Assembly (NCBI GenBank): GCA_022539475.1
Contig: VCMS01000188.1
Coordinates: forward strand, 46,636-110,635
Direction: 5' to 3'
DNA from: Gracilaria domingensis
Taxonomy: Eukaryota; Rhodophyta; Florideophyceae; Gracilariales; Gracilariaceae
Length of the DNA: 64,000 bases
The position numbers and the translations under genes are program-made. How positions within the stretch are numbered: position 1 is the stretch's first letter; the number at the start of each line of letters is the position of its first letter. The notes below the pieces were generated by a model. The model worked only from the letters and a program-made list of their open reading frames with translations, ran no database searches and was not told where the DNA came from. This document shows positions 12,174 to 60,551 of this stretch, one piece after another.

Positions 12174-12353
12174 AAAAGGTGGGAAAACGGAAAAAAAAGT
12201 TTTCGTTTACTTGTTTCCAGACAAGAACGTGTTCCATGAGTGTAAGTAAATAAAGGAAAGCGTTAGCACAAATTCCACACAAGAGCGCATTCATGTGTGT
12301 GCAAGTGCGAAATCGTCTCTGTTCTCCTCAACGCAGCACTTCAACCCTGCTTC

Positions 12354-13625: not shown

Positions 13626-13789
13626 AAAGGTTATTGTGTTCTAACAAAGGCTTCTACGAGCGACAGCGTTCTCGCCTCTCGCATCCCCAAATCCGAGTTC
13701 CTCTCTGTCAGCAGTTTCTTGGCGAGAGGTGAGACAGGAGAGGCGGGAGAGTCGGAAGAGGAGCGTTGCTATAGTTATGCACCACCTCG

Positions 13790-35391: not shown

Positions 35392-35763
35392 CAAACAAGT
35401 TTTCCTGATACAATCACCATACTGCCACAAATCCCGCAAAGACAGGTACTGCATAGACATCTCATCTTCATAATTCTCTTCAAACGAACCTTAATTGCAG
35501 TTTCAGAAGTGGTAGAACGCTTCCTGTTCAATTGCGATATTGAATGCCATACCAGTGGTGCCACCAATGATGTTAACGATACCGAGCATGTCCCAATTAG
35601 ACGCAACGGCACGAAAGACATATGACATTTGTGCAATTACCAGCCTGCCGCACCTTTTCAATGTTCATATGTACAGCCTTACAATAATATACTATTCTTA
35701 ATACTCGCAAGACACTCATAATTTACTAATCATCTCATCCAGTTCGAGGCGCTCGCAGCCTCA

Positions 35764-38700
35764 TTATTGACAAATCGTCATCACTACTGCTCTCGAGCAC
35801 TTCAGTTCTACCGGCCTCCGCTTCCACACTGATCTCCACGACCACTTGGTCTTCTTCCATGTCAACCGCCCTTCCTTATCGGACAACAGTTCATTCTCCG
35901 TCTCCTCCTCCTCGTCACCACTGACAAACGTGGGTCGGAAATCCCGTACCCGATGAACTGCATCAGGTAGTGCGTAGCTCTCTGGGACCATGTACATGTG
36001 GAATCTAACCAGCAAATCCATGGACTCAGGCCTATCCACTTTGTCCTTCTCACTTGCTCCAGCATGTCTCACATCACCACGGCCCACGAATATAGAGTAC
36101 TGTAGGATGATTATCTTCTTCGCTGGATACGCCTCCGACATCACTCGCAACTGTTGGTTGTTCATCCCGACCAGTTGATGGCTTCCAGGGCTCACCCAGA
36201 GAGGAAATCCCTCTTTCCCAGAGACCATCACAAAGTATCCGGGGCTAGGAATATTCATTGTTTCCTTCGTAACCAGACCACTGAAGTCCGTGTGCAGCGT
36301 CTGTCGCATGCAATTTCTCGTGGTCCCCAGAAATCGGCCAGCAGTTTTCGCAGTGTACATCTTCACAGCTTCTATTTCATTGTCCCATAGTCCCAAAGCC
36401 GCAGAAATTGTACCCATTGGAACATCAAGTAAAGCACGCGCCCTTACAACCCACCTGAGCTCCTCATTATCCTCCGGCTTCTCCACTGTACCCCAACGTG
36501 TCGACATCACTCTCCCGTCCTTCCATCCTTCATCATCGTTGATGACATGAACAAACGACTTCTGTTCCTCCCCTTTCCGTATATCCGGCATCGCTCCATA
36601 CTCATTCTCGAAGAAGTGGACCAATTTCCCTGACACATCTCCAAACTCCCGAACTTCTTCCAACTCCTCCCATTTAGGGACACCATTATCCGTCGCAAAG
36701 CTATCAAGCACGCAAAATCCATTCTGCCTTAGCTCAGCTTGCATTCGGGCGAAGAAAATTTGCCGAAATTCGTCATGCTTCTTCGCAGCAACCCACAGCA
36801 CCTCTTCATCATCCATACCTGTCGGGCGAGTACGAGGATAATGCATACCAAATGTCTCCGCCCGGAGGCGATTTTCAGCCCTTGCAGCGTGCCAAAACAC
36901 AAGATGGTGTACATCTCTGAGATCTGAGACACTTAGCAGCTCCGACCTATGTGCCTTCGGCAAGTGAATGACTCTGAGCCAGGGATCCTTGTGCTCAATC
37001 GCGTTCTTCCCTTGCCATTCCTGCGGCCTCAGCCTGACATAACCGCACCATGATGGGTTCTGTAGGCCATCATATGCATCTCCTCGAACAAGTCCGTGCT
37101 CCTCAGATTCCGGAAGAGCTGTAGGTAACTCGTCATCAAATGACCCCCCATCTGTCTCTTGCTGATCGTCTGGCGCAGCATCTTTCTCGACGGTGACAAC
37201 CCGTGAAACTGTGACAGCAAGAAGCTCTTCGTCATCTACAAATGCAGAACTGCATGCGTTCTCTGCATTCTCTCCCTCTGCCAATGACACAAACTGAACC
37301 TTCATCGACCTTCCTCTCAGCACATGTTCATTTAGTTGAGACATCAGGTTATCCGCTGTCATGCTGTTCAGAGTGGATCTCATCTGTTGTGTGAAAGTCT
37401 TTCTCTGTTTCTTTCTGGGCGGAGCCCGCTGTTTATCTTCAGAGCTATCTTGAACTTCTATGGCACCTCGATTTTGGCCGTGCTCAATTTCCTTATAACG
37501 CACCTGCGCTCGTTCTCGTGGACTTCTTCGCGGCTCCCATTCTTCACTGACAGATGTTCCAGCAGCAGCAGCGGGAGTCCTCCTCTTCGCCACAAACTGC
37601 TTCACTGGTGCGGGCGGCGGATTTACCTTGAGCATCGTCCGTAATCGATTCTGAACGGAAGTCGTGGCAGTTCTAATTGAGTTCGTCCTGCTCCAAACAC
37701 GCAGCAATGTATTTAAGTTCACAACTTTTCCCAAAAGGAACTGATACACAGCTGCGTTGTTGTCTGGGTCTTCAACGTCATCTTCATTCGATGGAGCAGA
37801 AAGACTGACTTCGCGTTTCAGAAATACTTCCATGGACTCTTCCTCGTTCAGTTCATTCCTCACTGCTCGAGCTGAGCGGAACATAGACACTGCTCTATCA
37901 TAAAAAAAACCTCGAACCTCCTCGAAGCGTTTCCATTGCTTTGTCTTCGTCGACTTGCCCTTCAATAGAAACATCTGAAGACAATCAAGAATGAAGGAAA
38001 ACTCCTCGGCATCCAAAACATATAGCGGAGTATGAGACAGATGTGTGAGACTTATGTCACTCACAGTTTCACATATATCCTCGAAATGGGCCAGCATTTC
38101 CTCACGAGACATGAGTTGCAGGGCGACATTAGCATATCTCAGATACTGACGCTCTTGCACAGTCCCAATCAGTTGGCTCTCATTCAACACTTCTGTCACT
38201 TCTGCAGGATCCACGTCTGCCGGCGTCACCCTCTCAACATTTTCAATTAGAATGGCGACCACACTAACTATAGAGTGTATCTTGTCTGCAAACATCATTT
38301 TTCGCATGGTAACTCGTCGACTCATAGAGGTACGAAGCAAAACATAACAATTCCTTCATCCCAATGAGCCTCCCATCTCTTCGTATCAGCAGATTGCAAC
38401 GGCAAAACTTGGCTAATCTCTTCCACTTCGGTGCACCAGTCGCTGCCAAATATTGTATAATTTTCAGGCGATGCAAACCATCCACAATGAAGCACTTCTT
38501 CGTTAGGCGTCCCTTGTCAGTATCCCTCTCTCCCGTAGTAGCATCTTGTAAGGCCACCACTAGAGAACCGATCGACTACAATATCCCCCGCTCCTCCATA
38601 CTCTTCATGAGGGCTTCAACGTGGCGTTTACTTACTCCACGGAGTAAATTGGGCGGAGTGTCCACGGGAGTAATGTCAACAGTAACAACAACCATCCGGT

Positions 38701-39634
38701 AGTGATTGAGGTTCATCTTTGGGACCTTCTGAGGAATTCGTCTGTACGTCTTGCTTCTGCTCCGAGTAGGTGTCCCTTGTGTTCCTGACTGCTCGCCAGA
38801 AACACTTGAACGTGCCATTCTTGCGGACAGAAGCACAAAGTCATCGTCCTGCTGCTCCGCAGTTTCTGGTGCAGTTTGGGGTACAGATGGACCAGCTCCT
38901 CGTGCGGATTGCGCATCCGCGTCTGGAAGGGGACCTTTTATGATCTCATCTTCCTCTTCTTGCACAGCCATCGCATGCTGAACGGTCTGTTTCGACGCAG
39001 AAGATCCCCTTGTGTTGACGATCTGATTCATCGCAGAGGATGCCCTTCTCGACCCAGTGGGCTTCGTAGCGGAGGTAGACTTTGTTTGGCCTGTCCGCTT
39101 CGTAGCTCGAAATGATCTCGTCTCCATAGTTCGCTTCGTAACAGACGACGGACCGGCCCGCGGAGGTGCTACTGATGCGCTACCTCTAGGGGTTGATGAA
39201 CTTCGAATTGGCTCCGTGCGGCTTGTCAGCGTCATCGCATCACTCATAGCGCTCACCGTTCGTCGCCTGGACGTCGGAATGCTGGCTGCCACCGGTTCCA
39301 TCATTTTCTCATCCCAAGGAGCGGCCGTCCGGAGATCCTGGATGTATTGTGGTAGATCCAGGCCTTCCGCATGGTAAGGGTAGAACGTCTGACCGCTTCG
39401 TCTGATGAGAATATTATGAACCACCACAACACCTGGGTCCAATTGCTTCCCGTTCAACTCGCAGCGTAGAACACTTCCAATTCCATGCAACAACTCTTCC
39501 CCGACTATCACCTTTCCTTCGTTCTCAATATCCATCTGCAGAGAAACCCGCATTCCAACTTGCAATCATCGAATGCTCCGCCGTGTGCGAGGAGTCACGC
39601 TTTGCGTACGCTTTCGAACAGGAATCGGCTTCAT
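35764..39634 (-). pseudogene. ParB-like domain plus 2OG-Fe(II) dioxygenase fusion
   Basis: Starts at ATG 39632-39634 (MKPIPVRKRTQ). A TGA at about 39566, a disordered Arg/Ser/Thr-rich linker, then a ParB-like fold: DITPVDTPPNLLRG, VEALMKSMEERGIL, TAG near 38574, CFIVDGLHRLKIIQYL (the DGxxR signature), and helices after a frame change near 38340. 35764-38340 is one 858-residue frame. Its C-terminal third is a double-stranded beta-helix oxygenase: LHTDFSG with Fe ligands His (36293-36295) and Asp (36287-36289), GRGDVRHAGA with distal His (36064-36066), and LLVRFHMY with the 2OG-binding Arg (36004-36006). Relative to copy 2 a 4-base loss near 35875 changes the last 50 residues. ParB-type domains bind or cut DNA; such oxygenases hydroxylate bases or proteins. 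The substrate is unknown. Confidence 0.7.
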
Positions 39635-40087
39635 GTTGAACGGTTATTGCAGTGAAAGGTTTAGATCCATAATACGCTCGCTCTGGACGATACAAGAACG
39701 GAGGCGAGCCTTTAAATGGCGAGTTACGCTGGGCACCCCCGTTTTCGGCACCTTCTCCCAGCGCACCGCCAGTCTCGTCCGTGTCCTGTCCGTGGCCGCT
39801 GGCTCGCTGAATGTACGCTTTAGAGTCGTGGCGTACGCGCAACGATGACTCACGCAATCAATGGTCGCTCTCTAATCGTGCTCTTCAAGTGCTCATAACA
39901 CTGTCATAGTAGTCAAAAGTACACTCATTCATGTACAGCCGACTTCCGCCAATACACACGGACAGCGGCGAAAACGTACCGGCGGGCGGGTGTAGCGAAA
40001 TCAATGCGGGAAGTACCGGGGGGGCGTGTTTTGGGAGGTCTCCGGAAGGTGTCAGAATGTGTCCAGAATGTGCCCGCGGGTGGGGGA

Positions 40088-40129
40088 GGTCCGGTCGTGT
40101 TAGGGTAGCTACCCTAACACGAGCGGACC
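40088..40129. repeat. Palindrome 1 (centre 40108/40109)
   Basis: GGTCCG...GTTAGGGTAGCTACCCTAAC...CGGACC, a 42-bp near-perfect palindrome with one mismatch pair (GTC/GAG arm). Could extrude as a cruciform. Confidence 0.85.
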
Positions 40130-40485
40130 CACCCGTCCGCTGGCATAAAATCGCACATTTTTCAAAAAAGCGGCCAGAACGTATCTGTTTGTCGCACAAT
40201 GGTGGTACGACGAGAGGGAGAGCACGTACGGAAGGGTGTGAAGCGCGTTCGCAACAACGCCCTTCTCACCCTGCTGTCAGCAGCGCTCGGTGTCGTGCGT
40301 TCGGAGTGAGGCTGTTGTTGCGCGCCGTGGCTGGCCAGCACATCGGCTGCCCTCCGATGGGCTGCATGCGCGTAACGGACTTACGGCTCCGGGATGGAAC
40401 TGCGTCGTGTGCAGTCCATGACTGGCGTAAAGATTAGTGTAATGAAAAATGTAAGTTGTTTCATAGCTTACCACTAGACTAAACA

Positions 40486-40660
40486 AGACTGCTATCGATG
40501 GCGACCTGAAGTATTGCTGCGCCAAGGGCGCCCGCCGTGCCGGGGTACGCCATCGCCATTAGCGGTGAATCCAGTTCGTCAGCCGCGTCGTCGAACACCG
40601 CGCAGAATGCATACAGTCCCCCACATTCTTGACACTCGACACCACCCTCTTCTCTTCAGC
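40486..40660 (-). pseudogene. Unidentified coding remnant in the intergene
   Basis: Minus-strand frame reads VECQECGGLYAFCAVFDDAA and continues LDSPLMAMAYPGTAGALGAA to a TAG near 40486. It looks like the C-terminus of a captured protein. Family not recognised. Confidence 0.3.
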
Positions 40661-40793
40661 AGTTGTGGTGCGCGTAAGAATTAGGGAGCGTTTGGAGGAG
40701 GGAGAAGATGGGTTGGTGCGCGGAGGTGACGCCGTGGTTGCGGCAAGTGCCAGGGGGCGTGTTTTGAGAGGTCCCCGGAAGGCGCCAGAATTT

Positions 40794-40887
40794 GGCCAGA
40801 ACGTGCCTGCGGGCGGGGAGGTTCGGTCGTGTTATGGTAGCTACCCTAACACGACCGGAAGCCCCCGCCCGCGGGCACGTTCTGGCC
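40794..40887. repeat. Palindrome 2 (centre 40840/40841)
   Basis: 94-bp inverted repeat without spacer, outer arms GGCCAGAACGTGCC/GGGCACGTTCTGGCC and the same GTAGCTAC core. A few mismatches. Confidence 0.88.
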
Positions 40888-40914
40888 GATTATTTGAAAA
40901 ATGTGCGATTTTAT

Positions 40915-40994
40915 GCCCGCGGGCTTGAGGGGGGGTCCGGTCGTGTTAGGGTAGCTACCCTAGCACGACCGACCCCCCCTCCCAGCCGCGGGCA
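40915..40994. repeat. Palindrome 3 (centre 40954/40955)
   Basis: About 80 bp, outer GCCCGCGGGC arms and the core GTTAGGGTAGCTACCCTAGC. Spaced 114 bp from palindrome 2. Confidence 0.85.
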
Positions 40995-41354
40995 CGTTCT
41001 AGCCACATTCTGGCACCCTCCGCAGACCTGCCAGAGCACAACTTCCGGTACTTCTCGCAATGATTTCGCTGCACACGCCGTGCAGATATATCAAACTAGA
41101 CTAAACTAGCGCTTCACACCCACTTGGTCCGCGATTTTTAGCACAATACGCGACCTTTGCAATAGCTCCGAATCGCACGTGGCCTACACGCGACGCTATC
41201 GCACCCGCTCAAAGCGACATGGACACCGACCTCAGAAGCGAGCGGACACGGACACGAACGAGACTGGCAGTGCGATGGGAGGCGCTGCCGAAAGCGGGAG
41301 TGCCCAGCGTAAGTCGCAGTTTAAAGGCTCGCCTCCGTTGTTTGCGCTGAAGCG

Positions 41355-44300
41355 ATGGATTCCACTGACGATGGAGAGAAGATACATCTTATTGACATGA
41401 GTGCTCCGCCTCTGGCGTTCCATGCATATGCCAGACTTTTCTTGGTTCTTCGCAATGCGTTGGCAAACAGCGATGGATGCCCTGGTCGGCCACGGGACGT
41501 GGGGTTTAGAGGGCTAATAGAGTTTCGCGCCGACAACTATAAGCATATTCCGGAGGCAAGGAAGATGTTTGAGGAGGCCACTAACTCCAAGAACCTGCAG
41601 AACGTAACACTGCAACAGCTGCAAAAGAGTGTTGTGAATAACAAACCTGTGGAGCAACGATATCTTGTAACGAAGCTTCTTGAAAAGAAGGACAGGGATG
41701 AAGACCAGAGACTCCGTGATTATTTCCTTCTCTCTATGGATATCGGTATATACCTACCGGTGTGATGCCTGGTTGGTTATTTCATGACCAGGAAAAAGCA
41801 GGTTCTGAAGACGACAGTGTTTATCCCACCAACAGCTGTGAACTTATTTGAGGTCGTTATATACTTATCATACCTCGGCCACATAATGGGAGAGAACGAC
41901 AACATCAGAATGATGAAGAGGAAACAGCCGAAAAAGAAACGAAAAGTCAACCATGCACCATCTGTGTACATATCCACTTTTACGTCGTTCTCCAAAGACA
42001 ACTGTGATCGATTGAGATTTGCTATCAGTGAGGTCGTATGGGCATGGAGTTGTTTTGCGGCTCATCTTGGATATACGACCGTGCAGCACATGGTGAAACC
42101 ATACATTTATATGAATATGCAGACGTTGAAGTATACAGCGCTAGAGACACGGGAGTCTGGTTATGCCCCGACAAGCCAGAGTACTCGATTAAACACACAA
42201 GATGTGGCACAGAGCAGTACTAGTGGATCGATGGAGACCTTGAGCGATGAATGCGATACAAACATCCGAATACTGGCTAAGGAATTTTTGACAGATCTCG
42301 AAACCATATGCACCCACGATAGCCTCTATAGCTTACGGGCTGATCAGATGAGGAACTGGATAGAGTTTTCGAAGATACGGATGGATACCGTATCTGGTTC
42401 TGACTCCGGTGATTTGCCTGCACGATTTTAGAACTTTTCGCAGTTGCTATGGAAACCGATACAGGATATGCGTCATGAGGCAGGGTTCAATGTGGGCATT
42501 ACCGTGAAACCCGATATTGAACTGCGTATCCTTCTAAAACTTCCGTTAATGCCGAAACTTCTTCGACCAAGTCTGCCCCACCCACACCTCGTCGAGAGTA
42601 TATGCACCTCGTGAGCTCAGATAACGAAGACTTCGAAAAGCCGGTGAATCGTGCGGAGTATGAATCTCGGGTTATCGTGTACAACATCCAAAAGACTGGG
42701 ATTGAGCCGCCCATGAAGCGGATATCCAGTCTCCTTCGAATGAATATGGACAAGGTGTGGAAGGGGATGAGAAAGTCGCACTTTGTAGCGTACAATTGTG
42801 ACATGAAGGACCTGAGGCACACACATGAAACGTTTGTGAATGAGAGTGAGATTTTATGGGGTGAGACACAGCTTGTCCTAACAGACCATCGCCATCGCTT
42901 TAACACTCGAAGGAAGAGGAGCAAACGGAATAGTGCTCACGATGTCTTCAGTGAGAATGACATGATCAGTACGACGGACTTAATAAGTTCCGCGCTTCGG
43001 TCAGGTGGGCACTTCATTATATTCTGTGCCATGGCACGGTTTCATGTTTGGCACAGGATACTCTCGGAAACGGCAAATAGAAGAGATGACTGGAAGCAAA
43101 GGTAAGCCAGAACTCATGCCTTCGTTTAATGTGGATGGGAATCCACTTGTGTACATCCGGGATCGAAGTAATGTTGGCGGGAATCCACGGAAGTTTGGGA
43201 TACAGCCCGTAACGGAGTACGCCGTTCATGGGGTGAAGCGTGGATTGCGACTATCGGAGGAAGCCAGTCTTACTCCATTTGAGAAGAACAATTTCATTCT
43301 TTCTACTTTCCCGGCAAACAGGAATGTAATTGACCGGGTGCCGAAACCGAGAGCGGGGAAGTGGTTGACATGGAATTTAAATGATCCAGGTAGTTCAGTA
43401 CCAAGTGCGCAGTACATGAGACCGGAGCAGAAGTCTAGGGAGTTGATGAAAGAGTTGTTATGACGGTTCACAAGACCGGGTGATCTTGTCATGGACACGT
43501 TCGCGGGAATCTTTTCTACGGGTATAACGTGCGTATCGCTCACAAGGCATAGGAAGTTCTTGGGGTGCGAGAACAATATGCCATGCTTCAGCCATGCGAA
43601 GCACCATATAACGACTCCTATGGCTGAAGTTCTTCACCGGGGGAAGAATGAAATCGTGGTTGAACAGGAGGAGGTGGATGCTGCTTCAACGACTTATGAA
43701 CGGGTTCCACATCAAGACTGAGGTCGCGTTGAATGGAAGGCTCCATTTGGGTACCCCCAGTACCAAGTGATGCCTGCACATATTACTCGGTTCCTGGGAA
43801 GATACTGGAAGGACTGGGAGTTTTTCGACAAGTGTGGACAGCATACTGTAGATCTTTGAGAGGAGAAGTACCAAGGAGCTCTGAATCTAATGGATATACA
43901 TATGCTGTTGACGGTTGAAGCCAATCGCTATCGCTTACATGTAGCATATTCTAAGATTCGACATCCCCGTGTTGGTATGGGGGTGTTCACGGAACATAGG
44001 ATATTGGCTGTGGAAACTATCTGTCATTTTTATGGAAATTTGGTATACACGGATCTGACGAACCGGAAGGAAAGACACTTAACGTATGGAAGTGGCTGTC
44101 TGGGAGCCACGCCTGTGCGGTACAAGTTGTTTTCTATGATGGTCACTGTGACTGGTTCGGAGTTTCTGCACCTGAGGAACAGACCAAGAAAGGCTCAGGA
44201 TAGAAAGAAGAGCGAAGTCTACATTGTCCCGGCGCCTTTTTGTATCGGGGGCAACATTAACGACGGCGGATATCATGCCGGAAATACCGATTTATCGCAG

Positions 44301-44495
44301 CCCCAGTCAAACAGGACTCGAAGTGCCAATGTGCAGATGGTGAAAGCGAAGTCCGTGATACAGTTTAAGTCCGACCTTTTTAACTATGCTCTACTTCGTT
44401 GTAGAGCAGTAAAAGATATTGAGAAGGGCGAAGAGTTGTATTTCAACTACGAAGAGCAGTATGCCTGGAACTGGGCTCTGACATTGGAGCAATAG
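41355..44495 (+). pseudogene. N4/N6 DNA methyltransferase plus SET domain fusion
   Basis: ATG at 41355. The first 350 residues are unrecognised, with a basic MKRKQPKKKRKVNH stretch that could be a nuclear signal. Then a beta-class amino-methyltransferase: motif IV region LVLTD..RFNTRRKRS (near 42880), SGGHFIIFCAM, and the C-terminal motif I RPGDLVMDTFAG (near 43470-43505) with RKFLGCE. The SET domain at about 43960-44480 has VGMGVFTEHRI, a central CIGGNINDGG and the end DIEKGEELYFNYEE. Stops at 41763, 42429, 43461, 43719 and 43857; shifts at about 42450-42520 and 43060-43090. The catalytic DPPY-type motif reads DHRHRF, apparently altered by a 6-base tandem duplication at 42887-42898. In life it would mark DNA and histones; targets unknown. 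Confidence 0.75.
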
Positions 44496-44741
44496 ATGAG
44501 TGCAGTACCGAATAGAAAGTAAATATGCTTGTGAATGCTGCAGCTGCCTGCAATACGCGTTGTACATGTACACTGGAGCTCTTCATCTATATGTAACGGC
44601 GATATTTGCGACCCATTGCGCACCTCAAAATCCAAAAAAGCAGAAACTGCGGAGTCTCCAGGAATATCTGAACCATGCACTCCACCCAACCACCCCCTCT
44701 TCCCAAGTATTTCGTTTCCTTACCCCGTTTATCTCCACAAG

Positions 44742-47136
44742 ATGGGTATAACACCGAGAAAGCGAAATAGTACGCAGCGGAACAATAGTGGACAGAAGAA
44801 GAGAAGAGCATCTAATGATACGAATCAGGCTACAAGCACCGCACGTCCTAAACGGAAGTCATCTACGACGAAGGAGAGAGTCAGTGGGCGTCCTTCTACA
44901 GTACTCTCTCACTCATCTCGCAGCGGAGTGTCTTCCGGGATTGCGTCGAGACTTCGTGGATCAGCGAACGATGTTGTGCCGTTACCTGCCGATAATGTAA
45001 ATCGCGCATCTGTGTCTGCTCCCCAAGAAGAGGAGGTAACTCGGCCCAGCAGGTCAGGACAAGAGGGTATGACAACTGGAACTGAAGAGGTTCGTATGAC
45101 ACCAAAACCATCACGTCCCCCACCGATATCGAAGACTGGAGCTACTTGGGCGCGGGTTACGCCGTCCAGTGAATCGGGACAACAAGGTACAATGACGAGA
45201 AGTCGTGAGAACCCTACTATATTAAGATCGTCACCTCCCTCCCTGTCTTCTAGAACTGGGGCCGCTTTGAATCGTGTTATGCCTCGCAATGAGTCCGGTC
45301 AAGGGAGAAAGACAATAAGAAATCGAGAGACGACTGGTAGGCGAATTACTCCTAGACCTTCCCCTCTTTTCAGAACGGAGGCCGTTGCAGCTCGTAGGAG
45401 GCCCAATTCATCTGATATACGATGCAATGGAGGAGGACAGACCCGAGAGCTGGAGCTGTGAGCGATGGCAATGGTGGACACAGAAAGCCTAGAGCCTCTC
45501 GTGCCTAAGAGGGTGGCACATGAGGATAGTTTCGATAACGAAATAACACCGAATCCTGCTGCATTACCGGGGCTTGTCGCCGAAGAGGCTAGGGAAATAC
45601 TGGAAAATATCTACACTGGTGTGAACGCAACTTCTTTGAACAGATGTGATGTTCTAAATGAACTGAATTGCTTGAAAAAAAGGTTAAGACGCTACAAGAG
45701 GACTTGATGGTTCGGGGTATTCTAGTCAAGGTCGCCCAAGAGCAGAGTACGGCTTTGAAAAAGAGGCTTGAGGAGAAGGATCTAGTCATTGAAAGGCTAA
45801 GGGGGACACTGGAACAGGAGGCGGATAGGAGTACACGTGCTGGTGAATCTCGGCAGACAGGTCGAAAGAAGCATAAAATTGAGGTGTGCGACGAGTTTCG
45901 AGGGGTTGCCCGAGCAGTGTATCACAAAATGCTGACGTAGGCAAGGAGAGTAACAAGTGAGCTATGGTCCGAAGGTGAGTCGCTCACCCGAAATTGGGGT
46001 AACCGTGCCGAGAAGGTGGATGACGCAGCTGAGAGTGGAGAAGGGCTTATTGAGCCGGAGGAAGGTGGTTCATACATGGTTCCTAAAACCCCCTGGAGCT
46101 CTTGGGCAGTTTTGGCATGTTCACATCGTCGGTAGAGGGGGAGTCAAATGCTTTGCTGAAGAAAATGGTTGAAAGCGAGTTGAAGGAGTTGAGCTGGGAA
46201 GGTATTAGAAAAGCATCTCCTACCAACAAGTGTATACTGGAACTTTGTGCAGATATCTGCCTTAGGCAGAGAATGCGGCAGACCATGAGTGACCTCGTGG
46301 GCGTTGGGAAGAGAAATACGAGGGATAAAATACTTCTGCTCCTGGGCTACGATCTGATTTGGAGAAGAACAAAGCTCGTAGAAGAGAAGGCTGACGAACG
46401 CACAATGCAGTTGAAGGAAGGGCAGAAGAAAATACTTCGTATTGACGAAAATGGTGTACCGAACACTTCATGGTGGAGAAAAGCCCCATTTGTTCGTCTA
46501 AAGTACTCCAATGCGGACAATGTGGACGATATGCCGACGGAAGATCAATACTTGTTCTTCCGAAACCGTGTTGGGGTACAAGTACTGAAGAAGTTTATTG
46601 GCTATGATGTGGAAGAAAAGGATACGGGCACCTTTGTAGACGGCACTATACTGTTGGTCGCACGTTTGGACGCTTGGGTGTTGACGGTTGTGAGCCTTCT
46701 AAGCACGGATGCATCAAGGGGTGGCCAGAGACAGAAACTGTTTATAAAGAGGTTTGCCCAACTGCTACCTCTGTGTTTAAAGAATGTTTTAGCGGATGTT
46801 AGGCAACATGTCTTGAGGACCAATTCCAGCGAGTTTCATAATTATGGAACGACAACGGAAGGTTGGACTAAGGTTCTTGGTAATGACATGAGAGAGGCTA
46901 CATTTGGATATCGAATGCGGTCGAACGGAAGACTTTACCTCACTGTGAAAGAACAATTTTTTATTGACAGTGTGAGCCGAAGATTGGGTTCTATTAGCGA
47001 TAGTTTCGTTGGTGAATGCGAGGAAGGGGATATGGAGTTCAAGGAAATGGACATGAACGATTTTGGAAGTAGCACAGGATCACAAGAAAAGGCACCACAA
47101 GGTGAACAGGTAGAGGATGGAGCCCTTAATGTTTAA
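44742..47136 (+). pseudogene. Disordered/coiled-coil protein with conserved C-terminal region, unidentified
   Basis: Starts MGITPRKRNSTQRNN; about 230 residues rich in Ser, Thr, Arg and Pro, TGA at 45459, then MAMVDTESLEPLV. A 7-A run near 45675 breaks the frame before a coiled coil (LEKKVKTLQEDL; LKKRLEEKDLVIERL). TAG at 45938 and a shift near 46115 lead to a clean 344-residue frame (46102-47136), mixed alpha/beta with WWRKAPFVRLKY and an acidic tail. No family recognised. It ends 4 bases inside the convergent transposase. A structural or DNA-binding partner is possible. Confidence 0.55.
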
Positions 47137-50100
47137 GGCTGTACAAGATCAACGTGCTCAGTTGGTCCTTCACCTGAATCATGATAGAATCGATTGATGT
47201 AGAATCGGTGTTGAAACCATTGAAGTGGAGGACAAAAAGGTGGAGCAGGGTAGTTTGATCGAACAACATGGACAGTTCCCTGTAGTGCAGAAGCCGGAAA
47301 CATCCCGTACCAAGGAGTTAACTCTACGATACTCTCCGTTTTGGAATGACGACGGAACGGAAGAGTGTTGTTCTTTTCATCGTTTGTAGCCCACCGTAAA
47401 GATATGCATTTCAATATGTGGTCGATGTTTGTTGCGGGGGGTAAAACCTCGAAATACCGGACGAATGCCACCTCTGATGCGATAAGTGCACAATCAAGGA
47501 GAGATATTTGAATCAGAGCGACTACCTGGGCAACCCAAGTCTCTGAATCTTCTCCGCTTACCAATACAATGGAAAACTTTGGCTTTCTACTGGAATCAAA
47601 TGCTGGAGAAGCAAAGACTCGTTGGATGATGGGGTACTTAAGTCGTCCCAACTTGAGTGCCTTAGAAGAAAAATCGAAGTGTTCAGTAGTCGGAACAAAA
47701 CCGCCTTTCACGAGGGCCGAACTCACCATTGTTATCATTGTCTTTTCTGGAAAGTATGTAATAGAGTGCTCATCCAGTGTTTATTTCACGAAACTGAGGA
47801 AAGAAGGAAAGGCCTGTGCACCAATTTGGTCAAGAATCGACCTTGTGTCCGTACTTGAGAAACATCTCTCTAACAGCAGTCCATGTTTTTGAACTGGACA
47901 TACTTGAAACACAATGGTGAAGAGCTCGTAAAGTGAAAGAACGCCCTCTCATTGCAAATCGAGGGAGCTGTGTGGAAGTTCCTGGTAAACCTGGATTACG
48001 CTGGTGAGGAGTATTGCCATTCCATTGCTTTCTAACATGTCCGTGCTCAATGGAGCGAATAGTCTCATCCACAGCCGTTGCTGTTCTTCTGGACGTCTTT
48101 TTGTAGTGTCTCTTAAATAGCAGGTGTGCATGTTCGTATATGCCTGCGTCGTAGTACTTGAGACTTCCCAGACGGCGAATATCGTCCACGAGATGATCGA
48201 CAAGATGAAGCTTCAGAGTTCCCAGTCTGGAGGGAGGAAAATCCGCCAGAGTCATTGTTGCGGAACGCTTGAAGGCTTCAATCTCCGAACTAAGACACAG
48301 GAGAGAGCTTTCAGTCCAATACGGGTCACGATTGTATCTGAATAAAGTCGAAAGCAAGTCCGAGTACTGAGAGAAGATGGTTATGACTGGGGCAACGTCC
48401 TGTTCTCTACAGCATATGTCAAGGAATGCTCCTATGAAGGAGAAGACCATTTCAAGAGCTTTGTAGTTTTGGGCTTCCAGCATTCCACGGAGACCATCTT
48501 TCGTGAAGATACCATTCAAAGATTTGCCTTTCTCCTGCGTGGAGAAATCGATATGTAAACTTTTGGCAGGAGAATCGCGTTCTATGGCAGCTAGAATTGC
48601 GGTTGCATGGTTGAGAAGTTGAGTGCGTATCGTTCGAAATGAACGCGATGCAGATGTTCCTATTGTGGTGCACAGAGTTTCTGACTGCAGTCTCTCGATT
48701 GTGGCCGTTTCTATCAGCTTCGAGATGCCGAGATGCAAGTTGTGTAATGGTTCGAATGAGAACAGACTGTGTGGAGACAATCACGGTTCATTCCAAGGCT
48801 TACGAGAGTTTCGAGAAACGAAGGAATAAAAGATATGGACTTTGAACGCATAAGAGTATCCGCCTGAGATCTCCTCTCCGTCGCACGACGTCGACGTTTT
48901 TCCGCCACGTCCTTTTGTGCATGTTTTTATATAGCTGTGTATGTCTTTCGGATGCTTTTCGTGTGCTTTTAAGAACTTCCGTTGAATGAGTTGGGAACAT
49001 GACTGCATAAAGATGAGCTAGGGGCTTTGCATATATGACTCGGACTTTCCGTTTTGGTCCCATGAAGAATAGAAAGAACGTCCTTAGCCTCAGGAATATC
49101 CGCACAATAACTTGCAAGCAGAGGATGGCACACTCGACTTAGTTTGTCTTCGCCGATGAACTGAAAACCTTTCTGCGTGAGATTTAGAATGGGCTCCAGG
49201 ACTTGTCGAAGACAGTTTTGAAGGATTTGCATCCGGGACTCGCGTAGAGACTTGCTAGAAACGAATGGCATTGCGTCTGTTTCAGATGCGGAAACCTCGA
49301 TCAGTGTGGTGGGGAAGTATGCCACTACTGTGAGTTCATCACGGATGCACTTACGGCGTAGCTCGTCGGAGAAGTTGAGAAATAAGAGGTGAAGAGGATA
49401 GGCGGTAACCGATGTTTTCTTTAGAGTTGTTGAAAACTTATCGGTGTATACCTGCAGAAGACCTACGAAAGATTGACTGTAACTTATTTCTTGAGAGTAC
49501 CACTATTCTAATATCCAACGGCGCCTTTTGCGAGAGAGCCGGACATGTGGTGAGATATTTTCGTGGAGTGGGTCTGAGGTATAGGGTGGAAGAATGAGTT
49601 TTCGTTGTCAACCAACTGCAGCTGTTTCAAAAGTGTCTGAACAGGGTCTCTCGTGTAGAGGGTGGCGCTGAACTTACATCCATCTGGCGAGACGGTTCTT
49701 GGATTGAAATCGTCTTTTGAGGCGTTTCGTTCGAGAATGGCGTTCTTCAGTTCTGTACAGCGGTTGGAACTTGTTATGGTCTCGTTGAAACGCTTTTGCG
49801 AGAATCGCGGGTCACGAAGTAGCCCAATTAGCTCGTTTGCTTCACGATCACCAAGGTTGGAAGCTACTGAAGCCAGACAAGCCGTGAGATAATCCATAAG
49901 CAAATCAGAGAGGGCCTCCTCAGAAGGCACTGGGCGGAAACTGCTTCCGTGTTCTCGCTCTAATGCCGCGGGACCCAGGGAAGGAGAAACACAATGCCAA
50001 GTGTCCGGAATGAGAGGAGCGCACGGAGTGGGGTCAACGATGTCTTCGGACAACGAAGGCTCGGGAAGGCGACAAGGGGCAGTGACCGTTTTGGAAGATG

Positions 50101-50278
50101 CGAGCGCGCGCGCAGAGAGCTTGAGACGCGTGCTTCTTCGAATGGGAAGCCTATTGTCGTCTTCCCGCGCGGCTTTCAGATGAAGCGGGCAATGGTTAAC
50201 ATGCTGTTGAAGAGATAACAATCCTTGGCAAATAACGAACCGGCACCCACGCCTCTTATGTGTACAGTAGTAGACCAT
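47133..50278 (-). pseudogene. Plavaka-like transposase
   Basis: Start ATG at 50278 (MVYYCTHKRRGC) with a Cys/His zinc-finger-like N-terminus. After a disordered stretch the fold matches fungal Plavaka (CACTA-related) transposases as I know them: DPVQTLLKQLQ, a Phe-rich NFSDELRRKC with VAYFPTTLIE (near 49320), CLRQVLEPILNL, CHPLLASYCADIPEAKDV (near 49100), FEPLHNLHLGISKLI (near 48750), KLHLVDHLVDDIRRLG and YEHAHLLFKRHYKKTSRR (near 48100), and a C-terminal beta-rich part. Frames break at about 49508, 49000 and 47830. The family assignment is from motif memory; a KDZ-type transposase is the main alternative. Confidence 0.68.
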
Positions 50279-51855
50279 TGGAAGAAAAAATGAAGAAGAA
50301 ACGACAACAAAGACCGCAAAAGAAGGTCGTCCGAGGGGAGAAGGAGGTCGCGCGACAGTCGAGATCGACGTCAAGCTGAGAACGGAGAGTATAATTTGAG
50401 TGTATATCACGTGCTTTGGTTCCAAAAGGAACGTGGGAACACGTCGACCTCAACACAAGGGTGCACTTCTCGTATTATCTACCACTGGTTATAAACCTGT
50501 GATATCACAACGTTGTACGCTGTACACCTGTCCAATCTCGCCCATAAAAATAAATCTCTTCCCTCCGCCGCCTCCGCCGTCCGTCCGACGTCCGACCTTC
50601 TGCTACCGTCGTGATCCGTGCTATCCACATCTTCGCGTTCTACTCCGCTCCGTAGTACTTTTTTCCGCCCTCGCACTGGCTACGAAGTAGAGAGCGGAGA
50701 AAAGAATGAAGTACGCTTTAAGCGCATAAAGTTTATGTCCGCTTAATAGACGCCTTCATAAAGCGGACATCGTCCGTATCTCACGGATGTATTCCGTGCA
50801 GTCATTTCGTACGTTCTTTTATATCCTACGTATCTTTGCTCTAAACTAACTCATCCTCACCACGCTTTTTCCCGCTATGCGACATGTAAACGGCAGAAAA
50901 TAAGCTTTGGGTTACCGGATTCCCGTTTTCAACCTCCAACTCGTTCCATTTGTTCAACTACGTTCTGCTCGCTACAAGAATTTTTTTCAAACTTCTGAGG
51001 GTACTTGGATGGCAACTGGAAACAATTAGGGCATTTTGATCGCAGTTTGAGCACAGAATGAGACGAGCGCTTCATTACGGGGGTTTGACAATGCACAGAT
51101 GCAATGCATTCTGTGCTCGATGGGATTGCAAGATGTTGGAGCGCAAACGCTGCATCCGGATTCACGCGACAACGGCAGTTCACAGTTTGAAGTCTGCCCC
51201 CGGTCACGCTCCATCTGCACTCCGTTTGCCGTTTGAACGTCGTCGTCGCCGCCGGGCCACCTTTCAGCGCCGTGCCACTCATCTGCGCACCGTGAGCCTC
51301 GTCTTCTTCGCGCGCGTCGTGGGGGCTACTGTTGCGTGGGCGACGCCTCCATCGGACATCCGCCGCCGCTGGCGTCAAAGCCTTCGTCGGCGCCCTCGTC
51401 TCACCGCGCCGCGTCCCGTCAGCTCAAATATCTGCCTGTTTTGTCAAGGCTCTCCTGCTGTCGGCGGCGGCGTCGCCGTCCGCGCCCCCGGCGCTGGCCG
51501 TTAGCTCGTTCATTCCGTGCACTGCTGTGCCGAGAGCGCGCCGCGTGGCGCTGCCGCTGCGGCTGCGCTGGACGTTTGAGGCTGGCGTTTTCGAGAGCGA
51601 GAATCCGTACGCATCAGAGCTCGAGCAGACTGCCCCCTACATTGTGTCGCGCGGCTCGGGCATTCTGGAGAGCGACGAATCCATGTATTGGTGGCAGCTC
51701 TAACAATCAAGGGCGCGCGACATGTGTGTGACATGAATAAGCTGTCTTACATGGACGCAACGTAGCTTTTCGGTGCTGCAGTGGTCGCGCAGTTCAATCT
51801 CCACGTGCCAATGTGGACCGTACGAACACGACATGTCTTTCCCAACGAAACTGTT
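50279..51855. other. Stretch without supported genes; right edge of the Plavaka-like element somewhere here
   Basis: Contains a pyrimidine-rich stretch (50560-50680), a stem-loop at 50729-50775, and a GC-rich patch (51180-51700). A plus frame near 51540-51700 reads LRLRWTFEAGVFESENPY and looks coding-derived but was not recognised. Confidence 0.45.
50729..50775. repeat. Inverted repeat / stem-loop
   Basis: ATGTCCGCTT and AAGCGGACAT separated by about 16 bases, next to a CGCTTTAAGCG palindrome. Possibly near the element end. Confidence 0.6.
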
Positions 51856-54602: not shown

Positions 54603-55312
54603 ATGGAGTCGCCACTGCCACCAGCAGTTGATGAAAGTGTAGCTGTCGCTCCACCGGCCACCGTCGTCGTCATTAAGTCGCTCAACTCGTCGCCGCAGCA
54701 GCCGCTGTCCGGCAAGCAGGTCATGCGTGCGTAGGAGGCCGACTTCTGTCTGCACGTGCACAGCGTCGTGCTGGCAGACGCCATGGCGCATCAGACATTG
54801 CAGCTCTCGACGTCCGCACTGAGCCTTCTGATTTATTGTTGCCGTCGCTGACCTCGAGCTGCAATTGCTGCACGCTATGTGCTCTGTGCAGCGCGCCATT
54901 CAGAATGCGTTGCAGACACGCGTCAAGAACATGTCCTTCAAATCGCGCCTGTACCGTTTGTTCGAACGCTTGCAGCTCACGCCTGCGGAGCTGCGCGCCT
55001 TTGTTTTCATCATTCTCGATTGCGTCGGCGTAGAGGCCTCTGCCATGTGAGGAACGCTCGTCGTCCCGACATCGCTTCGATCTGTTCAACTGCCGCAAGC
55101 TTGCCGAGATGGATGGAGATCAGGTGCTGCACTTCCTCTCTCCGAGCGGAAAACACTTCACGCAGGGGCTGCTGGAAGTGGACGATGAATTTGCCGCCAT
55201 GTACGACGAGAACAAGTTTCGCGCGCCCCGAGAGGTGCTCAAGGCTGTGTATGGCTGCACGCTTGCCGTCGACGAGGCCATGACCGTCTGTGTTCTGCAA
55301 AGTGGAATATAG
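54603..55312 (+). pseudogene. Unidentified gene fragment divergent from POLA2-like
   Basis: ATG 54603 (MESPLPPAVDES). Frame breaks at about 54733, 54840 and 55050 separate segments that read as one protein: VVIKSLNSSPQQPLSGKQV, LLHAMCSVQRAIQNALQTR, LQLTPAELRAFVFIILDC, and VLHFLSPSGKHFTQGLLEVD with FRAPREVLKAVYG. It could be the N-terminal part of a larger ATPase-like protein, but no catalytic motif is present and I cannot name it. Confidence 0.5.
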
Positions 55313-55752
55313 TCTGTTCGCTTTGGAAACTAAGCTAGTTTTGGGGCTATTTGGGGCGTGCGAGGGGGTGGCAGAGGCAGGCACTCAAAAAATTAAGAAA
55401 TTTTGGAATATTAAATTCCATTTCGAGCAGTTTAGTTCTTGGGTCTCCTAGTTTTTGTAGAGGTTCTACTTCGCCGCACCACCCCATTCACTGTTTTCCG
55501 CGACCCTCTCTCAAAACTGCACTCGTGCTAGTTTGCGTTTCCATTTTCTCCCATGTTGCAATGCCAATCGCAACTCATCCTACCTCAATCATCCCATCAC
55601 TTCTTCCCAGTCCACACCACCCCCACTATTTACCCATTTCTCGCCCATCACGCGTTCGCATCCTCTCTCTCCGTCTCCGCAAACGTAATTTTGTAGAAGT
55701 CAGGTGGACAACTCTCCCCCTTCTCGTATACCCGCCTCGCCCCAAAACGGCT

Positions 55753-56683
55753 TCAAATCCCTCCCATCCTTCTCTCCTCCTGTCCCCTCAGAATCCCCTT
55801 CGCAGTCCGCGCTACCTCCGCCGCACTCCTAAACCCAGTCACCACCGGAGCTCCGATTCCCTCCCGCGGCACCTCCTCCACCACCTTCTTCATCTCCTTA
55901 CGCCTCTTCTTCAGACGGCTCTTCCCATCCTCAACCCCACCACCCTTTGTCTTCGGTGTCACAGGGGACCCCTTCTGCACCGCCACCCTTCCCACACTTC
56001 CCTTCTCCGTCTTTCCCTCCACACCTCCTTTCACCGTCTCCTCTTCCACCAATCTTTGCCTCTTGCCCAGCTCCTTCACCTCCTTCTCCAGCACGTCCAA
56101 CCTCTCGTTCAGAACCCTATTCTCCTCACACAACTCTCCAACCTCCCTTCCCGCACACTCCACTATCCCATACACATGATTTCTCATCTCCACTCCCAAT
56201 ACCGACAACGAATTCCGTAGGCTCGAAATCGCCTCAACCGAAACACCACTACCACCCCCACTCAGCACCACAGCGCCCATTTCCGTTACAATCTCCACAA
56301 TTCCATCGTCCAGTTGCTCCTTCATCACCAACCCCAACATCCCCACCCTCGCCTTCATCTCCCTCACAAACCGCATCTCCCTGTCACCCCCTCCGCCCCC
56401 ACTCTCTATCTGGTCTCCAACCTCTAACTAACTCAGATGCACCGCACCCCTTCTATCTATTGCGACCCCCTCCACCTCCAATTCTACCCCCCTCTCCACC
56501 TCATCACCATCCTCTCTCCTCGCCTCACACTTCTTTCCTTCATCAGCCACTTCCTTCTTCTGCGACATCCGACCAGCCGCCGTAATCACGTCCTCTTCCC
56601 GCTTTGGTGACGGCGTCGGCGGTAGCTCCTTTCCCTCCAACAGCGCCAACAGCTCTTCATCCTTCACGTATCCGTTCGACATC
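55753..56683 (-). pseudogene. Coiled-coil protein with one stop, unidentified
   Basis: ATG at 56681-56683 (MSNGYVKDEELLALLEG), PPTPSPKRE, an acidic stretch, one TAG at 56428, then a coiled coil (LCEENRVLNERLDVLEKEVKEL) and a basic tail (RLKKRRKEMKKVVEEVP). About 310 residues. May be a host gene or a gag-like TE gene. Confidence 0.5.
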
Positions 56684-57001
56684 TTCAGAAGAAGAAGTAG
56701 TAGTTGGATCGTAGTTTCCGCTGCGATACAGTGCAATCGAGCTAAACTGTGCTGTCCATCCCCACTGTCCAACCACACGGGCTATATCCAGCACCATGAT
56801 TGTCCCTGTTTCCTCATCCCATTTCCCGCCAAAACATCTACTGTACACCTCCGCACCTTCCACTATTTAAGCGCCATTCCTCTGTCCCCTCTTCACATAG
56901 TCCCCACCCACCTCGACTCGACCGGCGATATTTTTCCCTTCCACCATAACCTCACTCGATGTTTATAGCAAAACAGGAAGATATTGCCAGTGGAGGCAAG
57001 C

Positions 57002-57280
57002 TAGGGACTAGTGATTGTACTTAGAGTAGCTCACCCTCTGTCTCGACTGGGGGCATCTTCTTCTTCCATCACATCCTGTGTGGGTTGTGACAAAAAAAGA
57101 ATATGTCACCATTCGACACCGGATGGGTAACAATGATAGCACGTAGAGTAGTTCATCCTCCCTCTCAGCGTCCACTGGGGATATATTGATGTTCTCTCAC
57201 ATCCTTTCCCGGTTGTGATACAAGAGAAATACATCTCCAATGGAGACGGAGAATATAGTCGTGATAACACGTAAAGGTAA
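57002..57280. repeat. Imperfect tandem repeat, period about 120 bp
   Basis: Two and a bit units sharing TAGAGTAG(C/T)TCA(C/T)CCTC, CTGGGG, CTTCCATCACATCCT/CTCTCACATCCT and GGTTGTGA. No coding frame. Confidence 0.6.
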
Positions 57281-57314
57281 CAATGTCATAAACAATAATT
57301 TTATGCTACTATCT

Positions 57315-57620
57315 CTAACCAACCTTTCGAAAACCAGCTATGACATGAGCTGGGTTACTCGAGCCAAAGATGGCAGATCCTGCAACTGAAATGTTTGCAC
57401 CGGCCTTCACTACTCCTTTCACAGTACTCAGTCCAATACCCCCATCCACCTGTATCCCTATTCTTGGGTACAACTCCCTTGCATGTCGCACCTTATCAAG
57501 AACACCCTCCATCAACGCCTGTCCTCCAAACCCTGGCTCCACCGTCATCAACAATAACATGTCTACAACTCCTTCCTTCATAAGTGCTTCTACGACCTTT
57601 ATAGACGTATTCGGGCGCAA
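57315..57620 (-). pseudogene. RPE-like: Ribulose-phosphate 3-epimerase, C-terminal fragment
   Basis: RPE interconverts ribulose-5-P and xylulose-5-P. The frame gives LRPNTSIKVVEALMK, MLLLMTVEPGFGGQ, IGIQVDGGIG and ISVAGSAIFG, i.e. the last half of the TIM barrel. The upstream half is missing: the codons before LRPNT run into a TAA, and no RPE N-terminus is seen to 57930. A splice acceptor (TTAAAAG) just before leaves a small chance of a distant exon. Confidence 0.8.
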
Positions 57621-58032
57621 TCCAACTCCATCCTTTTAATTATGGCAATCCAAGTGAAGCTATAGAACCCGTTCACGTCATTTATGAAGCCAAGATGGCT
57701 CCTTTCATCCTGTATTCAAGCTCCCCGTAACTCGTACTGTACAACTACTTTACAACTCAGGTTCGAAATCAGTTTCATTCATTGTACACTTTCTACTCTT
57801 CCACCTACTTTTCATAAAACATCATCACACTTTGTGGTTTGTCGTCTCATACAAGCCCTATCATTCATTCAGTACAATCACATATCATACATTTCGCTCA
57901 CTTTCACAAAGTGAACCATGTTCCCGTTCTGCGCTTCCCAACCGTTTGTACTTAAGTATCACTCTTTACCCCAGCAGTTCTCCGCCCGATCTTCCATTTC
58001 TATCGTCACACAAAAACAATCGAACACTTGCA

Positions 58033-58935
58033 ATGAACTCCCAGTCCGACATGGCTCCGACTCCGCCTCCGAGTCCCAGATACTCTGACGTCCCTCAGGC
58101 CTCATCTCCCGCACGAAGGACTCGGGCCGTTATTGTTGGAAAGGAGCGTATAGGTACCATGATGGCGAACGAAGAAGATACGGTCATTTCCGCACACGAA
58201 TTCTGCAGCATGGCTGCTACATCTCATCTTTCTGATGTACCGATACTAGTTTGTGGAAGAACGAACACCCTGCAGACCGTAATTCAGGCTTGCCCTTATT
58301 CGCTCAGAGAGAATCTCGTTTTCTTCCAGAATGGAGACATCATACCATTGCTTTCGAAGCTCGGTGTGGACAAATGTTCAAAAGTTGTCCTATACGTTGG
58401 TGTCTCCTCAAGAAACGCAGCTCCGCAGGATGGTGTCACTCCTCAAAGTCCGGATGGTCTCACTGTCGCAACAGGAAAGTGGGCCTCCAACGTTGCAGAG
58501 AGGTTTAGGTCTATGGGTCCCACTTGCGGGGTTGTCGACGAAGACACATTTCTCGTAAGCTATTATGAGAAGCTCGTATGGCTCTCAGCGTTCAACATCG
58601 TCGGGGCCTCAAGAGGTTTCATTCCTATGGACGTAGTCGCTACGGAGTGCAGTACGGTTGTGCTCACAATAATGAAAGAGCTGTTGAAGATAGTTTCGCT
58701 TAAGACAGCTACTACTTTCAACCTGGAAGAGACCGTTGGGCGACTTCTTGCATATGGGAAAACTCTCGTTGGCTTCCCTACTTCTTTCTCCGACTTTCAG
58801 TTTAGGAACGCGTACTTCTACGACTTTTCCCGCCAAGAAAGAAACATTGTAGGCGGTGACCCCGCTCCTTTTCATACAAACTACGTCAACGTTGTTAAGG
58901 AAAAGTTATCCCCCTCCCAATTCCTCCAGCTTTGA
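58033..58935 (+). CDS. Ketopantoate reductase-like (ApbA/PanE fold) protein
   Basis: Intact 300-residue frame. After a Pro/Ser-rich start, RAVIVGKERIGTMM is a nucleotide-binding-loop remnant (GxGxxG becomes GKERIG). Then ILVCGRTNTLQTVI, LVFFQNGDIIPLL and VVLYVGVSSRN, the layout of the NAD(P) domain of this fold, and EKLVWLSAFNIVGAS in the C-terminal domain. The degenerate loop makes classic reductase activity doubtful. One of few intact genes here; probably a resident gene. Confidence 0.65.
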   Translation: MNSQSDMAPTPPPSPRYSDVPQASSPARRTRAVIVGKERIGTMMANEEDTVISAHEFCSMAATSHLSDVPILVCGRTNTLQTVIQACPYSLRENLVFFQNGDIIPLLSKLGVDKCSKVVLYVGVSSRNAAPQDGVTPQSPDGLTVATGKWASNVAERFRSMGPTCGVVDEDTFLVSYYEKLVWLSAFNIVGASRGFIPMDVVATECSTVVLTIMKELLKIVSLKTATTFNLEETVGRLLAYGKTLVGFPTSFSDFQFRNAYFYDFSRQERNIVGGDPAPFHTNYVNVVKEKLSPSQFLQL

Positions 58936-59554
58936 GGTTAGAACACATGACTTTTCGGTGTTGTAAACCTTCTAGAGATAGTTAAACATAAAAGTTACTT
59001 TATCGAAATGACCTGTTCCTATTACATTACTTATATTGTTCGTCCTTCTGTGGTTCAAATATGCCCCTTTAAATCCTACATCCCTTATCACTAATACCTG
59101 GCTAAGTTTTTGCTAGATGGAAAAGGGTCATTCCACATCATTAAAGTGCAAGATAATAGTAAGGAAACAAGTACAAAAAATTCTGAAGAACTAAGTCTTT
59201 GCAATACTTTGGGCACCCGTATAAAGTAAGGGAAACCTTTCATGGGTTTCAACCCTTAATGGAGGTTGTTTTACTGATCTTGATTTCTAAGCTCATGTTG
59301 AAGATATTCATAGTTTTCTTTACCCACTTGAACCCGTACATATAATTTATGACTAAATCATCCTTTCTTTACTGCAAATCGATGCAAAGGCTTCTCGTCG
59401 TAGTAACGTTTTAAAACAGTACTACAATACCCTTATATGGTCGTTCTTAGATTCTTTTTATACTACGAAACACTTTGTGAACATCAATCACATCCTTCTC
59501 ATTCGTATACCCACACTCATTTGCAAAACGAACCCTTTCGAAAGCTTTCAAAAC
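58936..59554. other. AT-rich intergenic spacer
   Basis: About 620 bp between two plus-strand genes. No repeat or coding signal noticed. It probably holds the terminator of the upstream gene (AATGACC/AATAC motifs only) and the promoter of the next. Confidence 0.5.
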
Positions 59555-60427: not shown

Positions 60428-60551
60428 CTAGGATATGAGATCTCAGTAATAAAAGTGTCGTATATATCTCAATACCCTTTTATGATTCATGGTGGTTTTT
60501 ATCGTGCTGCTTTTCCTCGTAGCCGTACAACAGAGCCACCAGCATAATTGT

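Follow-up and report, generated by a model that had tools for sequence, protein, structure and literature searches.

What use would a DNA transposon have for enzymes predicted to modify DNA and chromatin? This question is raised by a stretch of 64,000 nucleotides from the red alga Gracilaria domingensis (contig VCMS01000188.1, positions 46,636 to 110,635, i.e. C188:46636-110635, hereafter the window), in which two divergent genes lie beside a transposase gene. The minus-strand gene encodes a ParB-like domain fused to a predicted 2-oxoglutarate (2OG)-Fe(II) dioxygenase (ParB-2OG), and the plus-strand gene a putative beta-class DNA amino-methyltransferase fused to a SET domain (methyltransferase-SET). 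Scanning 680 contigs (77.9 Mb) of the same genome, designated below by C and a number, revealed that both genes belong to a cut-and-paste DNA transposon of ~21.6 kb with a Plavaka-group transposase, for which we computed the ends, the copy number, the fused domain architectures, the catalytic residues kept in distant relatives and an array of palindromes between the two genes. The answer towards which we lean is that this transposon carries a coupled, divergent pair of chromatin/DNA modifiers, i.e. a putative anti-silencing or licensing module.

The transposon and its divergent gene pair

An original prediction, made from the window alone, had proposed a divergent ParB-2OG and methyltransferase-SET pair next to a Plavaka-like transposase. 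The pair was found at the location given there, with both frames broken in the window (gene coordinates below are open frames of other copies mapped onto the window).

35738..39640, minus strand: ParB(+helix-turn-helix (HTH)-like helices)-2OG dioxygenase gene, frame-broken here, a 1,308-aa open frame in other copies
39694..39786, minus strand: arm of a 93-nt inverted repeat, just upstream of ParB-2OG (repeat search, 87% complementary)
40097..40120, no strand: exact 24-bp palindrome GTGTTAGGGTAGCTACCCTAACAC (0 expected in 100 shuffles)
40829..40852, no strand: 24-bp palindrome, 1 mismatch (motif search)
40943..40966, no strand: 24-bp palindrome, 1 mismatch (motif search)
41250..41342, plus strand: other arm of the inverted repeat, just upstream of methyltransferase-SET (repeat search)
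41355..44492, plus strand: beta-class N6/N4 DNA methyltransferase-SET gene, frame-broken here, a 1,045-aa open frame in C47

The ends of the element, which are sharp, were defined by comparing the copy on C81 with those in the window and on C296, C47, C329, C65 and C85. The left terminus is CGTCTGTGTTCTGCAAA and the right terminus, read inwards, CGTCTGTCTCTTGCAGA, i.e. imperfect terminal repeats of the CGTCTGT type. In the near-complete C81 copy (21,587 bp), the two termini enclose all the parts. Genome-wide, there are 458 exact left and 478 exact right termini, with 0 for reversed-pattern controls. Half of the first 100 left ends (50) pair with a same-strand right end within 40 kb, when the first 100 right ends are used, although a few pairs (C54, C57, C65) use one common right end; 17 of these 50 pairs are spaced by 9-12 kb, 14 by 18.9-24.3 kb and the remainder fall between or outside. 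An exact 2-bp target site duplication (TSD) is present in 6/10 end pairs (C6, C8 twice, C27, C19 and C9), for which chance, at 1 in 16 per pair, would be ~1e-5, a naive estimate as the 2-bp length was taken from the same data. The terminal inverted repeats (13/17 bases identical) and 2-3-bp TSDs that define the Plavaka group are thus both found. The transposase itself, examined as a slice of the C81 copy, scores 31.8 bits against PF18759 (cut-off 26.3), which bears out its original assignment, and 123 scored Plavaka matches among 672 candidates in the genome (62.4-87.5 bits) include another lineage. At least 23 of the 80 scored matches with a profile start ≤100 have a tail-to-tail SET match 4.3-5.3 kb away, and among the matches listed this is the case for 0/43 with a profile start >100 (e.g. 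C22:687175, C12:68428), which look like mainly another Plavaka lineage.

The copies of ~10 kb were considered as a separate, cargo-free element, which was rejected, the partly read example on C26 (C26:355014-365321) being an internal deletion derivative that retains both ends, the intergene with its palindrome array and portions of both genes. A short relative with the same end is perhaps seen in C296 (local 13456-13922, in a reverse-strand copy), where ~467 bp with the left end of the element, 85% identical to C81, are joined within another copy.

The methyltransferase-SET protein, a single open frame of 1,045 aa in C47, combines the two domains that had been predicted, N6_N4_Mtase (PF01555, 57.0 bits, cut-off 26.7) and SET (PF00856, 31.9 bits, cut-off 22.4), and the SET piece of the window copy itself reaches 28.9 bits. 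Motif IV (DPPF at 511) precedes motif I (FAGTFST at 715), which is the order of the beta class, and reads DPP[FY] in 17/17 aligned proteins. Together with a CcrM-like predicted fold, this motif suggests N6-methyladenine (6mA) as the product of the putative DNA methyltransferase. The SET part has, in the element, the C-terminal catalytic tyrosine region (GEELYFNYGEQY).

ParB-2OG is a single open frame of 1,308 aa in C81 and C296. The oxygenase signature put forward originally (HxD, distal H, R) is invariant in 14/14 aligned proteins and, with the fold modelled for a relative, indicates a 2OG-Fe(II) dioxygenase of the phytanoyl-CoA-dioxygenase type. The suspected kinship with TET/JBP left no sign: a Pfam search of 14 proteins (E ≤ 0.1) did not return this family, nor is it among the best 50 rows of either PDB structure list, an absence that is no exclusion. 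The ParB part shows its DGxHR motif in 13/13 proteins covering that stretch, weak ParB matches in PHROGs for 2/3 cropped regions (E 5.1e-4 and 2.8e-3) and a confidence (predicted local distance difference test, pLDDT) of 67-90 by ten-residue block in the model. In a BFVD structure search with the multi-domain model of a relative, ParB/Spo0J proteins were the top viral matches (best E 1.8e-5, with a large root-mean-square deviation over several domains). A ParB_N profile search of 20 virus records gave 0 matches, and phage and plasmid records had no tblastn match to P0020, a ParB-2OG relative, at E ≤ 1. The three database proteins matched by the oxygenase open reading frame (P0001-P0003) are all from Gracilaria domingensis (81-87% identity), and the idea of a fungal origin was abandoned for that reason. 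These database models are misleadingly named, e.g. mediator subunit 15-like or SasA, and P0001 and P0002 are without the oxygenase core.

Both fusions recur in metagenomic proteins at 22-47% identity. The methyltransferase-SET protein P0005 and the ParB-2OG protein P0020 are very probably encoded on the same metagenomic contigs, because each is listed with 4 contigs, the longest of 20,528 bp. In G. domingensis itself, C382 contains three SET matches in frames of 1,169-1,170 aa (C382:11387, 35738 and 111587), the first of which, over the ~600 aa read, has both methyltransferase and SET parts and shares 29% identity with the window family and 34% with P0009; two or more old lineages of the fusion are therefore present in the genome. 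Motif IV at C382:11387 is EPPYN, and some metagenomic relatives resemble the C382 family more closely than the window family does.

Three copies of the palindrome GTGTTAGGGTANNTACCCTAACAC (0, 1 and 1 mismatches, expected 0) lie between the two gene starts, two of them 114 bp apart within nested inverted repeats, and the leaders of both genes are mutual inverted copies over 93 nt. The exact 24-bp palindrome occurs at 1,115 sites genome-wide (control 0), at least once in 10/12 end-paired elements read from listings on C2-C9, including 6/6 sized 10.3-11.2 kb. Among 16 sites with ≤5 mismatches in five copies, 1.7% of fixed positions deviate from the motif. The intergene has no similarity to the end regions of the element at E ≤ 0.01; it folds strongly as single-stranded DNA, but shuffle controls are limited to 1,000 bases and nothing is concluded from the folding.

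What the pair may do

How could such a pair serve its element? Bacterial ParB proteins bind palindromes, often close to their own gene, and the simplest reading is therefore that ParB-2OG is addressed to the element by the array. We propose that (i) the ParB/HTH part would recognise the 24-bp palindromes, as bacterial ParB does parS, thereby bringing the oxygenase to the element, (ii) the oxygenase would erase or alter a mark, (iii) methyltransferase-SET would write two marks on the same chromatin, an amino-methyl one, most likely 6mA, and a methyl one on histone lysine, and (iv) the pair would keep the chromatin of the element favourable to expression and transposition, or time transposition by methylation state. 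Self-marking as active is the favoured outcome because adenine methylation is tied to permissive chromatin across eukaryotes, according to the accessible part of PMC12695648. A bolder version, which we put forward tentatively as possible rather than probable, is a self-contained, sequence-addressed epigenetic switch, whereby the ParB-oxygenase would load at parS-like palindromes and erase or alter marks, and a single-chain enzyme would couple 6mA to histone methylation; between them they would set the chromatin state in several hundred copies, among them deletion derivatives in which the array is retained.

Several observations weigh against this explanation. None of the copies read has both modifier genes open, intact copies being what the original prediction had looked to: C81 and C296 have a broken methyltransferase-SET frame, and the C47 contig starts within ParB-2OG, a gene that is moreover interrupted by a stop. 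Among the 53 listed 2OG matches, at least 12 lie within 12 kb of a divergent SET match that is also listed (spacing 3.8-6.4 kb), 7 further plus-strand 2OG matches being too close to a contig start for this comparison. No matching 2-bp TSD is found in 4/10 end pairs (C34, C54, C165 and C81), and 2/12 end-paired elements on C2-C9, both of 21-23 kb, are without an exact palindrome. A role of the palindromes as transcriptional operators or as transposase sites is just as conceivable. At the sequence level, the ParB part lies below Pfam detection, with no ParB match in 14 members (E ≤ 0.1) or 5 cropped regions, an outcome that the original prediction had itself named as one that would refute it; we call the domain ParB-like, not a member of Pfam ParB_N, for this reason. 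In 4/17 aligned proteins (P0012, P0013, P0015 and P0019), the catalytic region of SET has degenerated or is absent. Phytanoyl-CoA-dioxygenase-type enzymes act mostly on small molecules, and a DNA or histone substrate is therefore not implied by the oxygenase fold.

The chief alternatives to self-marking as active are self-restraint and plain regulation. Were the pair to limit copy number, methyltransferase-SET would write repressive marks, as proposed for bdelloid N4CMT and SETDB1 on transposons, and the oxygenase would reset them. We consider this rather unlikely: motif IV is DPP[FY] throughout the aligned proteins, whereas the catalytic motif for N4-methylcytosine (4mC) is SPPY in the accessible text of PMC8885841, and the extreme abundance of the element fits poorly with strong self-restraint. 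The operator-like layout, with palindromes between divergent starts and both leaders forming an inverted repeat, suits instead a ParB-2OG protein whose main role would be to bind the palindromes and regulate the divergent promoter, with enzymes serving another substrate such as a nucleotide or protein. The oxygenase fold, which is that of small-molecule enzymes, and the presence of two HAD-like genes and a dehydrogenase-like gene, which suggest some metabolic cargo, go in the same direction. Such a regulatory role remains doubtful to a similar degree, since the fused DNA methyltransferase and SET point to chromatin and distant proteins retain both fusions, with one pair that probably shares its contigs. 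A further reading is descent of the region from a DNA virus with ParB, 2OG oxygenase and DNA methyltransferase, in favour of which ParB/sulfiredoxin and phytanoyl-CoA-dioxygenase-like proteins are known from giant viruses and phages (the structure matches include Orpheovirus and CeV-01B). However, terminal inverted repeats, TSDs, a transposase of the Plavaka group and exact ends in numbers of about 460-480 mark a transposon, no virus hallmark is present among the mapped genes and, among the viral-contig matches listed, 58 relatives cover the methyltransferase part only and none the SET part, which makes a viral relic very improbable.

The proposed mechanism, if true, would have implications beyond this element, as it would represent a natural single-protein link of DNA adenine methylation with histone methylation. 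It would also provide an example of addressable anti-silencing in a branch of life little studied epigenetically, for which the ~10-kb derivatives are a natural comparison set.

The two copies in the window and their surroundings

A full copy has the gene order CC1 (-), dehydrogenase-like (+), HADa (+), HADb (-), ParB-2OG (-), intergene, methyltransferase-SET (+), third gene (+) and Plavaka transposase (-). The window carries two incomplete copies, with the following further features.

35400..50970, plus strand: copy 1, which contains the modifier pair and is without the left ~5.8 kb and the right terminus; 91.3% DNA identity to C81 from 35400, right homology ending at 50915-50970
35401..35478, minus strand: stub of the HAD-like gene HADb where copy 1 breaks off on the left (26 aa at 73% in tblastn with the C81 protein)
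44703..46650, plus strand: third plus-strand gene of copy 1, coiled-coil-looking by eye, with pieces in three frames (tblastn with the 682-aa frame of C81)
47415..50401, minus strand: Plavaka-group transposase gene of copy 1, broken here, with open frames of 1,024 aa in C81 and up to about 1,100 aa elsewhere
55285..64000, plus strand: copy 2, which runs off the contig end; exact left terminus at 55285-55312, 96.2% and 95.1% DNA identity to C81
55756..56682, minus strand: CC1 of copy 2 (tblastn 94%)
58033..58917, plus strand: dehydrogenase-like gene of copy 2, GxGxxG by eye (tblastn 96%)
59357..60424, plus strand: HADa of copy 2, a HAD-family hydrolase (PF08282 42.1 bits, cut-off 20.9)
60483..61397, minus strand: HADb of copy 2, HAD-like, broken here, 42-46% identical to HADa and tail-to-tail with it; the C81 version scores 20.4 bits, just under the cut-off of 20.9
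61665..63998, minus strand: ParB-2OG gene of copy 2, 3' part only, broken

Copy 1 is damaged, because ParB-2OG, methyltransferase-SET (three tblastn pieces each, in changing frames), the third gene and the transposase are all split over several frames. The median synonymous divergence (dS) of the window ParB-2OG against other copies is 0.11, that of the whole set 0.026, and the ratio of non-synonymous to synonymous divergence (dN/dS) is 0.596 among 23 distinct copies in the same comparison. The third gene has no Pfam match, and the dehydrogenase-like gene has no Pfam or NCBIfam support and PDB matches of E 0.36 or worse. The transposon also keeps two diverged, tail-to-tail HAD-like genes and a dehydrogenase-like gene (55285-61400) aboard.

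Elsewhere in the window are a DDE_Tnp_4 (Harbinger-like) transposase (12267-13622, 83.5 bits), a MULE transposase domain (5101-6681, 40.6 bits), pieces of retroelement integrase and RNase H (8413-10125 and 29796-30506) and, near copy 2, a fragment of the host gene for DNA polymerase alpha subunit B (52556-53515). An Rfam search of the window gave 0 matches.

Comparison with known systems

In line with the original prediction, which knew of no description of this exact combination, a literature search, with most subscription papers and all preprints outside its coverage, found no account of a ParB-2OG or methyltransferase-SET transposon, nor of their combination. Fungal DNA transposons with TET/JBP genes, including PlavakaB families, have been described and anti-silencing proposed (Kojima, 2025; PMC12730594). 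In the accessible part of that paper, these are likewise CMCT-group DNA transposons with a 2OG-Fe(II) oxygenase as cargo, proposed to escape methylation-based silencing, and their TSDs (2-bp in PlavakaA, 2-3-bp in PlavakaB) are similar to the 2-bp ones found here. However, the oxygenase of the ~21.6-kb red algal element is phytanoyl-CoA-dioxygenase-like and ParB-fused, and a methyltransferase-SET gene is added. Its termini, CGTCTG..CAGACG, match neither PlavakaA (TGT..ACA) nor PlavakaB (CATCA..TGATG), nor the CA..TG usual in the CMCT group, as given in the same part of PMC12730594, and the element was therefore classed by its transposase alone. SET-bearing Harbinger transposons, cited there by title (HarbingerS; Kojima and Jurka, 2014), are likewise DNA transposons encoding a SET histone methyltransferase, with a transposase of another superfamily, as far as that title tells. 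In bdelloids, N4CMT and SETDB1 likewise tie a bacterial-type amino-methyltransferase to histone methylation at transposons, but these are, in the accessible part of PMC8885841, host genes rather than cargo, with a chromodomain fusion plus a separate SET protein, 4mC as the mark and an SPPY motif. Because modifier-carrying DNA transposons have already been described, the G. domingensis element represents a new combination within a known kind.

With bacterial ParB-parS it shares a DGxHR-type domain, a helical part after it and palindromic sites near the gene, a likeness drawn from sequence and predicted structure, whereas the domain is here oxygenase-fused and resides in a eukaryotic transposon. 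Transposon proteins that bind repeated motifs of their own element and counteract silencing are exemplified by TnpA of Spm/En and VANC of VANDAL, which, to our knowledge, are without enzymatic methyltransferase, SET or oxygenase domains. We know of no DNA methyltransferase fusion or ParB-2OG in HarbingerS, and the epigenetic-enzyme-carrying transposons known to us have one such enzyme each. Here, two fused proteins, one joining a putative DNA methyltransferase to a histone-type methyltransferase and the other a bacterial partition-type domain to an oxygenase, are arranged around a candidate target array.

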